DNA of 64,000 nucleotides from Parabacteroides faecalis (GTDB taxonomy: Bacteria; Bacteroidota; Bacteroidia; Bacteroidales; Tannerellaceae): NCBI RefSeq assembly GCF_022809355.1, contig NZ_JAKZMM010000001.1, positions 1 through 64,000 of the forward strand. The letters run 5' to 3'. A program made the translations under genes and the position numbers. Of the stretch, positions 18,224 to 56,097 are shown piece after piece. Position 1 is the stretch's first letter; each line of letters opens with the position of its first letter. The notes beneath the pieces are model-generated. The model ran no database searches. It worked only from the letters and a program-made list of their open reading frames with translations, and was not told the origin of the DNA.

Positions 18224-18317
18224 ATTCTTTAGTTCACGTCGGGAACTAAGTAATCCACGCCGTGAACTACTTAATCCACGGCGTGAACTAAGTAATTCGC
18301 GACGTGAACTAAAGAAT
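18224..18317. repeat. Phased palindrome array A (four 15-bp cores, 21-bp period)
   Basis: Four palindromic cores lie at 18232-18246 (GTTCACGTCGGGAAC), 18253-18267 (ATCCACGCCGTGAAC), 18274-18288 (ATCCACGGCGTGAAC) and 18295-18309 (ATTCGCGACGTGAAC). They are separated by 6-bp spacers TAAGTA, TACTTA, TAAGTA and flanked by ATTCTTTA and TAAAGAAT. The outer 18 bases on each side are perfect inverted copies. Read on the minus strand it matches array B at 29023-29116. It is the main content of the 445-base gap 18001-18445, between divergent paaK and MFS genes; the rest holds only weak promoter-like boxes. Confidence 0.85.
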
Positions 18318-28285: not shown

Positions 28286-28918
28286 TTATTCATCCTTTCT
28301 TTTGACATAGACTTTGTTTGTTCCCATGCCGGAAACCGTAATTCCACTGTTCGGATCCTGCCGGAAACGTTGCAATTCCCGTGTTGCTGTCGTACGACTT
28401 AACCCGGTCAGTTGTACATAATCGGCAATACGCATCAGGGTATGCGTCGATAAATACTGCTGGGCAAGGGCCAATCGTTCTTGTTCGCTATAACGGGAGC
28501 TGTGTAAAACACTGTTTCCTCCGCGTTTCAGATTACAATGCCGGTTGGTTCGCCGGATTAATTCCTGGCTGGCTCTGAAATTAACGCCGTTCACTTCAAT
28601 GCTCCGGGCATTACGTTCGGGAGCATCTTCTTCAACCGTTTCGGTTTCCTTGTCGGCCGAAAGTCCCAATGTAGGTTTGAAAGTACCTACACCGTCGATT
28701 GTAACCGTATAACCTTGTCCCATGTAATAAGCCAACTTTTCGGCCATGTTACTTAGTACGTGCAACACACTTCCTTCGCTCAATCCGGAACCCGGTTGGG
28801 CAAGTTCGCTGACAAATTCCCGCATGTTGATGCGCTGATACGTTTTCATTCTATAGAATGTACGTTTTTTTCCAGACCCGTCCAGGTCGTTCATTTCTTG
28901 TTTGATGTATTCTGCCAT
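28286..28918 (-). CDS. HU-related DNA-binding protein with C-terminal helix-turn-helix (paralogue 1)
   Basis: This 210-residue protein has an N-terminal HU/IHF-like domain (residues about 1-130; YTVTIDGVGTF is the HU beta-arm entry) of the HU-related family found in Bacteroidetes. A C-terminal helix-turn-helix or winged-helix module follows (RYSEQERLALAQQYLSTH, MRIADYVQLTGLSRTTATREL, GITVSGMGTNKVYVKRK). It is a clear paralogue of the protein at 55468. HU-like parts bend DNA and the HTH may give sequence specificity. A four-unit palindrome array lies 112 bases upstream, immediately beyond a promoter-like TACCTTTA at 28986-28979. This suggests autoregulation or array binding, which is inference. 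No partner gene is cotranscribed. Confidence 0.85.
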   Translation of the reverse strand: MAEYIKQEMNDLDGSGKKRTFYRMKTYQRINMREFVSELAQPGSGLSEGSVLHVLSNMAEKLAYYMGQGYTVTIDGVGTFKPTLGLSADKETETVEEDAPERNARSIEVNGVNFRASQELIRRTNRHCNLKRGGNSVLHSSRYSEQERLALAQQYLSTHTLMRIADYVQLTGLSRTTATRELQRFRQDPNSGITVSGMGTNKVYVKRKDE

Positions 28919-29022: not shown

Positions 29023-29116
29023 ATTCTTTAGTTCACGTCGTGGATTACTTAGTTCACGTCGTGGATTACTTAGTTCACGTCGTGGATTACTTAGTTCACG
29101 CCGTGAACTAAAGAAT
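29023..29116. repeat. Phased palindrome array B (four 15-bp cores, 21-bp period)
   Basis: Cores at 29031-29045, 29052-29066 and 29073-29087 are identical (GTTCACGTCGTGGAT). The fourth at 29094-29108 is GTTCACGCCGTGAAC. Spacers are all TACTTA and flanks are ATTCTTTA and TAAAGAAT, for a total of 94 bp. The length, flanks and period equal those of array A at 18224-18317 in reverse orientation. Transcription in either direction would give a series of hairpins. It lies just upstream of the promoter-like boxes of HU-HTH gene 1. Confidence 0.9.
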
Positions 29117-54664: not shown

Positions 54665-55264
54665 ATGGTCTATGGATATATTCGTGTAAGTACAGATAAA
54701 CAGACGGTCGAGAACCAGCGATTTGAAATCGTTCGTTTTTGTGAGACGCATGATATTAAGATCGACAGTTGGATCGAAGAGATTATTTCTGGTTGCCAAG
54801 CTGTGGAGAAGCGGGAGTTGGGCGAACTTTTGTCGAAAATGCAAAAGGGAGATATTATTATCTGTGCCGAACTCTCTCGTTTGGGAAGGAATCTTTTGAT
54901 GATTATGAGTATTCTGCATCAGTGCATGCTTTCGGATGTACAGGTTTGGACTATCAAAGATAATTATCGCTTGGGAAGCGATATTACGTCGAAGGTCCTG
55001 GCTTTTGCTTTCGGATTATCTGCCGAAATCGAACGTAACCTGATCTCGCAACGGACGAAAGAAGCATTGGCACGGAAGAAAGCCGAAGGTGTTTTACTTG
55101 GAAGACCGAAGGGAAGCAAATCAAAAGTGAATAAATTGACGGGACGCGAATCGGAAGTGAAGCGCCTGTTGGAAATGAATATGACGAAATCGGCCATCGC
55201 CAAGGTTATGGGCGTTCATCGTAGCACGATCTCCAAATATTTGTCGGAAGGGAAGATTGGATAG
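54665..55264 (+). CDS. Serine site-specific recombinase (Hin/Pin/Mpi-type invertase or resolvase)
   Basis: This 199-residue serine recombinase has catalytic Ser in YGYIRVSTDKQ (S9), AELSRLGRNLL with conserved arginines, the E-helix region KVLAFAFGLSAEIERNLISQ, the RPKGSKSK arm, and a C-terminal helix-turn-helix (MTKSAIAKVMGVHRSTISKY). In Bacteroides, relatives such as Mpi invert promoters of surface polysaccharides. No inverted-repeat-flanked promoter was found beside this gene, so its sites may be remote. Its neighbours downstream are palindrome array C and HU-HTH gene 2. HU-like architectural proteins are known accessory factors for serine invertases, which makes the arrangement suggestive. 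Confidence 0.93.
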   Translation: MVYGYIRVSTDKQTVENQRFEIVRFCETHDIKIDSWIEEIISGCQAVEKRELGELLSKMQKGDIIICAELSRLGRNLLMIMSILHQCMLSDVQVWTIKDNYRLGSDITSKVLAFAFGLSAEIERNLISQRTKEALARKKAEGVLLGRPKGSKSKVNKLTGRESEVKRLLEMNMTKSAIAKVMGVHRSTISKYLSEGKIG

Positions 55265-55347
55265 CAAAGACCGGTAACGGGATTTGATCCTGATTCTTTT
55301 CGGATTATCTGTGAGAAAAACTTGGAAAAGAGACGAATCTTTGTTAG

Positions 55348-55425
55348 TTTTACGTCGGCGAATATATGTTCGCCGACGATGAATATATATTCGCCGGTGG
55401 TGATTATATATTCGCCCTGGGCGAA
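55348..55425. repeat. Phased palindrome array C (four 15-bp cores, 21-bp period)
   Basis: Cores lie at 55348-55362 (TTTTACGTCGGCGAA), 55369-55383 (TTCGCCGACGATGAA), 55390-55404 (TTCGCCGGTGGTGAT) and 55411-55425 (TTCGCCCTGGGCGAA). Spacers are TATATG, TATATA, TATATA. Outer bases CTTTG/CAAAG are inverted. Geometry equals arrays A and B, but the half-site is TTCGCC/GGCGAA instead of TTCACG/CGTGAA. The first core and its left flank (TTAGTTTTACGTCG) still resemble the A/B left end (TTAGTTCACGTCG), suggesting common origin. It ends 42 bases before HU-HTH gene 2, so it may lie in that gene's leader. Confidence 0.85.
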
Positions 55426-55467: not shown

Positions 55468-56097
55468 ATGGCAGAATATATCATGTGTCAGACGGATAGT
55501 CTGAATGAAGAAGGGGAACCGATCGTTTACCCGCGTATGAAATTATGCGGCATGTGCGACATGAAGCAATTTGCGGAAAGCATTGAAAATGGTACAACTT
55601 TTACAGCAGCCGAGGTAAAAGGTCTTTTGGATACAATCTCTTCCAAGTTGGCTTATTGGATGAGTAACGGTTATTCCGTCAAACTGGATGGAATAGGGGT
55701 GTTTACTCCGGCTTTGGGCTTTAAAAAGGAAAAAAGCGTGGAGACGTTGGATAAAGAACGGATGAATGCGCAGAGTTTACAGGTCAAAGGCATAAACTTC
55801 AGAGCAGATACACAGTTGGTATCGCGAACAAACAGTGGTTGCCAATTGGAACGTTCGGACAAGAAACCGCGAAGGTCATCCAGTCAGTATACGCCCGAAG
55901 AGCGTCTGGCTTTGGCAAAAAACTATTTGGAGGAACATCCCTTCATGCAGGTTGCCGATTATTGCCGGCTGACCGGACTCTGTCGGACGACTGCCAGTTT
56001 GGAGCTTCGCCGCTGGCGGGAAGATCCTGATAGTGGTATCGCCATCGCCGGAACAGGAACTCACCGGGTTTATATAAAGAAAGAAGAAGAAAAATAA
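55468..56097 (+). CDS. HU-related DNA-binding protein with C-terminal helix-turn-helix (paralogue 2)
   Basis: This 209-residue paralogue of the protein at 28286 has the same layout: N-terminal HU-like domain (MAEYIM at the start, YSVKLDGIGVF at the beta-arm), a basic linker (KKPRRSSSQ), and a C-terminal HTH (YTPEERLALAKNYLEEH, VADYCRLTGLCRTTASLEL, GIAIAGTGTHRVYIKKEE). Its upstream array C has different half-sites from the array before paralogue 1, as expected if each protein binds its own array. It follows the recombinase gene by about 200 bases on the same strand. The target of binding is inference. Confidence 0.85.
   Translation: MAEYIMCQTDSLNEEGEPIVYPRMKLCGMCDMKQFAESIENGTTFTAAEVKGLLDTISSKLAYWMSNGYSVKLDGIGVFTPALGFKKEKSVETLDKERMNAQSLQVKGINFRADTQLVSRTNSGCQLERSDKKPRRSSSQYTPEERLALAKNYLEEHPFMQVADYCRLTGLCRTTASLELRRWREDPDSGIAIAGTGTHRVYIKKEEEK

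Follow-up and report, generated by a model that had tools for sequence, protein, structure and literature searches.

The window analysed here, a 64,000-nucleotide stretch of a Parabacteroides faecalis contig (NZ_JAKZMM010000001.1), carries two paralogous genes encoding HU-like proteins, here called HU-B and HU-C, each preceded by an array of four short cores, and a third array located between two other genes:

Array C, 55348..55425, + strand: four cores, read in the sequence and detected by Tandem Repeats Finder (four-unit periodicity score 0.75 in a separate test), taken here as the probable multi-site operator of HU-C
Core 1 of array C, 55348-55362: TTTTACGTCGGCGAA
Core 2 of array C, 55369-55383: TTCGCCGACGATGAA
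Core 3 of array C, 55390-55404: TTCGCCGGTGGTGAT
Core 4 of array C, 55411-55425: TTCGCCCTGGGCGAA
Promoter-like stretch before array C, 55310..55346, + strand: TTGG (around -33) then AATCTTTG (around -7), one mismatch to TAnnTTTG, judged by eye against the Bacteroides consensus
HU-C, 55468..56097, + strand: HU-HIG protein of 209 aa (PF18291, TIGR01201) with a putative C-terminal helix-turn-helix (HTH)
HU-C codons 168-183, 55969..56016, + strand: LTGLCRTTASLELRRW, putative recognition helix in which residues 172, 174 and 177 covary with half-site bases
HU-B, 28286..28918, - strand: paralogue of HU-C, 210 aa, 43% identical
Array B, 29031..29108, + strand: four cores of the type GTTCACGNCGTGGAT/GTTCACGNCGTGAAC, upstream of HU-B
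Array A, 18232..18309, - strand: dispersed B-type copy separating the divergent genes of an AMP-binding enzyme and of an MFS protein

The four 15-bp cores of array C follow each other at a pitch of exactly 21 bp, with TATATG, TATATA and TATATA as successive spacers, and Tandem Repeats Finder also returned a period of 21. The four-unit periodicity score of this region (0.75) exceeds both the 99% level (0.591) and the maximum (0.619) of shuffled upstream regions. An initial sequence-only reading had described four 15-bp palindromes with a 21-bp period and TATATR spacers. The geometry and the spacers were confirmed but, by eye, only core 4 is a full palindrome (4/7, 5/7, 4/7 and 7/7 matched pairs in cores 1 to 4, i.e., 20/28 in total). 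Likewise, the half-site TTCGCC/GGCGAA attributed to this array is exact by eye in five of the eight half-sites and the other three deviate. The distance of 42 bases between the last core and the ATG of HU-C (55468) is as first described. The same reading also proposed an "A/B-like left half", TTAGTTTTACGTCG, to which we give no weight: a one-base gap is needed to match it to array B, and it was not seen by eye in the 16 other C-type arrays. Promoters of Bacteroides have a -7 box with the consensus TAnnTTTG. Since the promoter-like TTGG..AATCTTTG stands just before the array, array C probably lies in the leader of HU-C. A gene encoding a serine recombinase of the Mpi family (54665-55264 of the window) is found directly upstream of it. 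Altogether, the genes adjoining arrays A, B and C encode HU-HIG proteins, this Mpi-type recombinase, a ferritin, the AMP-binding enzyme and the MFS protein.

Both proteins are members of the HU-HIG (PF18291) and HU_rel (TIGR01201) families according to curated scores: HU-C with 79 bits (E 3.9e-22) and 85 bits (E 5.4e-24), HU-B with 56 and 75.7 bits, for cut-offs of 26.2 and 68.6 bits, respectively. The closest named matches of HU-C are from Parabacteroides. The stretch LTGLCRTTASLELRRW is a candidate recognition helix of an HTH, but this assignment is weak because the C-terminus of HU-C has no Pfam match at E 5, that of HU-B matches HTH_28 below the cut-off (16.4 bits for 25) and the PDB profile matches cover the HU part only. 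We found, and know of, no publication describing cognate arrays or a function of the HTH in these families. PADLOC returned nothing for HU-C and two weak matches for the HTH of the recombinase.

The genome of the window (G000, 4.3 Mb in 104 contigs) encodes seven HU-HTH homologues, HU-C included. The association with an upstream array was examined at 115 loci, 35 from G000 and its genus and 80 named ones from Bacteroides, Phocaeicola, Parabacteroides, Mediterranea, Tannerella and others, the latter supplied by a search that counted 299 relatives. A four-unit array scoring above the 99% shuffle level lies within 400 bp upstream of the gene at 110 of the 113 scorable Bacteroidales loci (two, L175 and L206, have a short upstream region), which are not independent cases, since some genes are present twice (e.g., L008/L136) and several loci come from one genome. 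Only L005, L020 and L149 fall below the threshold. The period is 21 in 95 of the 110 positive loci, 22 in 10 and 23 in five, several of these last fifteen assignments looking doubtful. By comparison, the threshold was exceeded by two of 63 neighbour genes and by five of 50 genes of the window, four of these five flanking array A, B or C. By eye, some own arrays lie 3′ of a -7 box (L001, L010-L012, L014, L027 and L035) and others 5′ of a promoter-like stretch (L008, L009, L015-L017, L019, L021, L022, L024 and L029-L032); both positions fit an autoregulation.

Matching arrays of both the B and the C type are also dispersed over the genome, a feature that had escaped the sequence-only reading, so that HU-HTH systems combine an array beside the gene with similar arrays elsewhere, as operators of a regulator may do. 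In G000, the B-type pattern has 153 matches compared to five for the reversed control, and the C-type pattern, with three mismatches allowed, 128 compared to 28. These matches include at least 25 loci with B-type arrays (A and B among them) and, besides array C, at least 16 C-type arrays, most of them upstream of genes; all array counts given here are lower bounds. A third family of G000, with a 22-bp period, is associated with a more distant HU-HIG paralogue (L006; 26+26 matches against 3+3), and its arrays are found at G000:C14:14090-14215 and at six other places. The B-type arrays (29031-29108 and L096-L118) combine two half-sites, GTTCAC and, opposite to it, mostly GTGGAT; the resulting strand asymmetry is conserved from copy to copy.

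The half-site types are almost private to their genomes. With one mismatch, in the 38 genomes of the genus, the B-type pattern has 105 matches in G000 and at most two in each of the 37 others, and the C-type pattern 46 in G000 and at most seven in any other (G005). Two of these seven C-like matches are exact and located in contig C144, possibly reflecting a small related family in G005. The TATCTTTAG type has 276, 420 and 666 matches in G015, G026 and G032 and at most five in the other 35 genomes, and each of these three genomes has an HU-HTH gene with an upstream array of this type (L025, L013 and, in G026, a gene cut by a contig end). The array type of L010 has 15 matches in G033, grouped in three clusters, and the P. 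distasonis-like genomes G004 and G005 have at least 12 arrays each. The copy number is thus very uneven, from three to more than 100 arrays and up to several hundred pattern matches per genome.

Four units are present in 20 of the 25 B loci examined (the others having 5, 3, 3, 2 and 2) and in all 17 C arrays. The 39 arrays sampled in G015 (one place, G015:C20:7547, being left out) include 15 with four Y units, 23 with the order XXYX and one with two Y units, where X is the half-site type of the own gene of L008 and Y that of L025; pure X arrays are absent from this sample because it was drawn with the Y-type pattern. XXYX is also the order in the own arrays of L008 and L009, and the interior Y unit of mixed arrays (L264-L296 in G015) keeps a perfect 21-bp register. 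Such an arrangement suggests either two paralogues on one platform or copies of a single founder.

The arrays are not distributed at random with respect to gene orientation. The 40 arrays of G000, own ones included, lie in 14 divergent, 25 tandem and one convergent gaps, and those of G015 in 18 divergent, 15 tandem and no convergent gaps, six being ambiguous (L128 contained no array, the two-unit L098 and L105 were left out of these classes and L110 was counted once). Against a null built from G000 gaps near arrays with crude ORF calls, the 73 classified arrays of both genomes include 32 divergent ones, where gap lengths predict 16% (p 2e-8), and one convergent, where they predict about 16% (p 5e-5); G000 alone gives p 0.004 and p 0.016, respectively. 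Furthermore, of 51 pairs of a dispersed array and its gene, 30 have a TAnnTTTG box in the stretch separating the two, compared to five with a box in the 150 bp before the array and four with one on the antisense strand of the separating stretch. By eye, the genes behind the dispersed arrays are of unrelated kinds and show no common pathway.

The relationship between arrays and proteins was analyzed for period-21 arrays linked to proteins of 170-260 aa (94, reduced to 68 at <90% identity). Comparison of whole domains does not single out the HTH, because HU similarity tracks the arrays as well (rho 0.375 for HU identity and 0.346 for HTH identity; partial correlations 0.24 and 0.19). However, once overall identity is removed, the columns most associated with array similarity correspond to residues 177 (z 8.3) and 174 (z 7.4) of HU-C. 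Residue 177 and half-site offset 7 form the top pair of the 1,730 residue-position pairs (z 16.1 for a permutation maximum of 6.8), although z values of 6.8-9.2 are also obtained for eleven pairs involving residues outside 168-184. T177 goes with T at offset 7 in 24/25 cases, S177 with A in 14/14 and A177 with A in 11/13, and D/N174 goes with G at offset 6 in 10/10; array C is in line with this pattern (T174/S177 with GAAT). For proteins 50-70% identical to each other, pairs with the same residue 177 show an agreement of 0.79 at offset 7, and pairs with different residues one of 0.38. The corresponding values at offset 6 are 0.49 and 0.29, and at positions 1-5 and 8-10 the two sets of pairs are no more than 0.05 apart. 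The covariation across homologues, which the sequence-only reading had proposed as a check, depends for its significance on the clustering: it is lost when proteins are clustered at 50% (p 1.0) or 55% identity (p 0.30) and is found at 60% (p 0.02). In a parsimony test of co-change, using a tree from which the helix was left out, p is 0.023 for 177/7, 0.0046 for 174/6, 0.012 for 174/5 and 0.62 for 172/2. At offset 7, residues 200 and 29 (p 0.001) outperform residue 177, so that the tree-aware support is moderate.

The aspS gene lies directly downstream of HU-C as well as of L008 and L009 (also present as L136 and L137). These syntenic orthologues differ both in the helix (GRSTAC in L008, CRTTAS in HU-C) and in the half-site (CGATATTTAT in L008, CGGCGAATAT in HU-C). 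Together with the prominence of residues 177 and 174, this difference supports the proposal that protein and sites co-evolve.

Overall, we consider it probable (about 0.7) that array C is a multi-site operator of HU-C itself, and that HU-C is a sequence-specific, autoregulated protein acting also at the dispersed C-type arrays. The half-sites would be read by the HTH of HU-C. Since a pitch of 21 bp corresponds to two helical turns and places the four palindromes on one face of the DNA, several dimers could assemble side by side, possibly in a cooperative way. At its own promoter, HU-C would most likely repress or tune its own gene. If the 16 or more further C-type arrays are bound as well, HU-C could be a global regulator or a local chromosome organiser, with effects on transcription or on DNA topology. 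At such dispersed sites, HU-HTH proteins would act upstream of promoters, perhaps as regulators or as insulators between divergent genes. HU-B and the B-type arrays would be a second such system, working in parallel but with separate addresses, and pairs of this kind would exist in other genomes as well.

A broader proposal, which we put forward only tentatively, is that these pairs are private and fast-changing address systems. Each HU-HTH paralogue would seed its four-site array at anything from a few sites to hundreds, many of them between divergent genes, where a phased HU-HTH complex would insulate or bend DNA; changes of a few helix residues would shift the specificity and the whole family of arrays would follow, and two paralogues could share a mixed array in a fixed order (XXYX). 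HU-HTH proteins are likely genome-wide regulators or organisers in abundant gut bacteria. Their pairs with arrays would provide many natural examples of switches in protein-DNA specificity, in which the correspondence between residues and bases is legible, and a clean setting for studying how a DNA-binding protein changes its specificity along with all of its dispersed sites.

The main rival to a regulatory role is that the arrays are selfish dispersed repeats, similar to REP/BIMEs or MITEs, spread by copying and repressed, tolerated or helped by HU-HTH proteins with little gain for the host. We regard this as rather unlikely for their present state, but a selfish origin may be true of the past, with a use that is now regulatory. 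It would account for the high and uneven copy numbers, for the lack of array A between the same two genes in G012 and G037, and for the recurrence of the XXYX order of the own array of L008 in 23 of the 39 G015 arrays, as expected of copies of one founder. In G012 and G037, 77 bp separate these genes; the use of such empty sites to date the arrival of array A was abandoned, the relatives being too diverged. A few C copies do share some flank, but most copies have none in common beyond about 30 bp: within 500 bp, one B pair has 30 bp in common and a small subgroup of C copies 23-75 bp, a result that also led us to reject a large mobile element. Moreover, in 23 B and 17 C arrays, target-site duplications or paired inverted flanks were no more frequent than in mismatched pairings of copies, and the combination of terminal inverted repeats and target-site duplication typical of MITEs was not encountered. 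The enrichment in divergent gaps, the near avoidance of convergent ones and the correlation of arrays with helix residues of the neighbouring protein also argue against simple copying, as does the constraint on half-sites: between G004 and G005, substitutions affect 10/36 core-centre positions and 29/576 positions at offsets 1-8 (p 3e-5), even though whole arrays (0.067) and flanks (0.049) change about equally fast.

The HU-HTH/array system has some resemblance to known ones, but we found no description of it in the literature, a weak argument given a mostly open-access coverage. REP/BIMEs are family-specific palindromic repeats dispersed between genes, one of them being located next to the gene that encodes the cognate RAYT protein. 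The arrays are likewise palindromic, dispersed and family-specific, one copy adjoining the gene of the matching protein. However, this protein is an HU-HTH protein and not a tyrosine transposase (no Y1 transposase gene adjoins arrays A, B or C), and the arrays differ by their fixed four-unit, 21-bp layout, their location in divergent rather than convergent gaps and the covariation of their half-sites with the HTH. MatP is a DNA-binding protein with many dispersed palindromic matS sites. The putative relationship of one HU-HTH protein with many dispersed palindromic sites is similar, but the arrays have four phased sites per locus, are close to promoters and change specificity between close relatives. 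BrickBuilt of P. gingivalis has 23-nt tandem units and 19 intergenic copies in one genome, one of which, BrickBuilt_14, adjoins a gene encoding a PF00216 DNA-binding protein (PMC4596501). It resembles the arrays in these three respects, and BrickBuilt_14 is possibly a pairing of the same kind. However, that article presents BrickBuilt as a MITE that has terminal inverted repeats and a variable number of units (18 full repeats in one copy), and the word "palindrome" does not occur in the portion of its text that was searched (PMC4596501). Array C is also similar in length to the 77-bp inverted repeat of the P. gingivalis capsule locus, which has an HU gene in the same operon; this candidate was rejected, since that repeat has a loop flanked by two 77-bp arms and is associated with a 550-nt antisense RNA, and does not consist of tandem 21-bp units (PMC8757827).

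It is much less likely that the arrays act as RNA, through hairpins in leaders or untranslated regions. For array C itself, the idea of the sequence-only reading that it could fold within the leader is tenable, considering the promoter-like stretch before it and the stability of its sense strand (-43.5 kcal/mol, z -6.7 compared to shuffles). However, its other strand folds alike (z -6.9) and array B folds better opposite its gene (z -11.7 compared to -6.3), which weighs against an RNA role because any palindromic DNA folds in one orientation or both. As a general role it fares worse: palindrome mismatches show no sense-strand G-U bias (154 G-T, 205 A-C), the -7 box frequently follows the dispersed array (30 of the 51 pairs mentioned above) and Rfam found nothing in array C, with one sub-threshold match outside it.

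The arrays could finally be recombination sites of the neighbouring Mpi-type recombinase, a very improbable reading since, although its gene adjoins array C and arrays sit at breakpoints between G004 and G005, one of them looking flipped, tblastn found Mpi beside L001 only among the 115 homologue loci (short flanks being searched), and homologous recombination or template switching at palindromic repeats can also give breakpoints and flips. This recombinase was therefore rejected as the partner of the arrays. An invertible segment between arrays A and B was also dropped, both being members of a dispersed family.

Returning to the arrays as probable binding sites of HU-HTH proteins, nine of those in G004 match an array at the orthologous place in G005. 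For matches above 200 bp, six pairs share both flanks and three (L239/L257, L240/L252 and L241/L254) only one. Furthermore, array L249 of G005 has the left flank of L236 on one side and the right flank of L248 on the other, L236 and L248 being two separate arrays in G004. It is because of this junction and of the three pairs sharing one flank that arrays are said here to sit at rearrangement breakpoints. The differences between L241 and L254 are mirror-symmetric, as if the array had been flipped. L243, L250 and L255 have no partner in this set. Besides these changes, about 142 bp located inside a gene (L242:2210-2350), which are missing from L256 and whose junction shows an overlap of 8 bp, do not correspond to an array.
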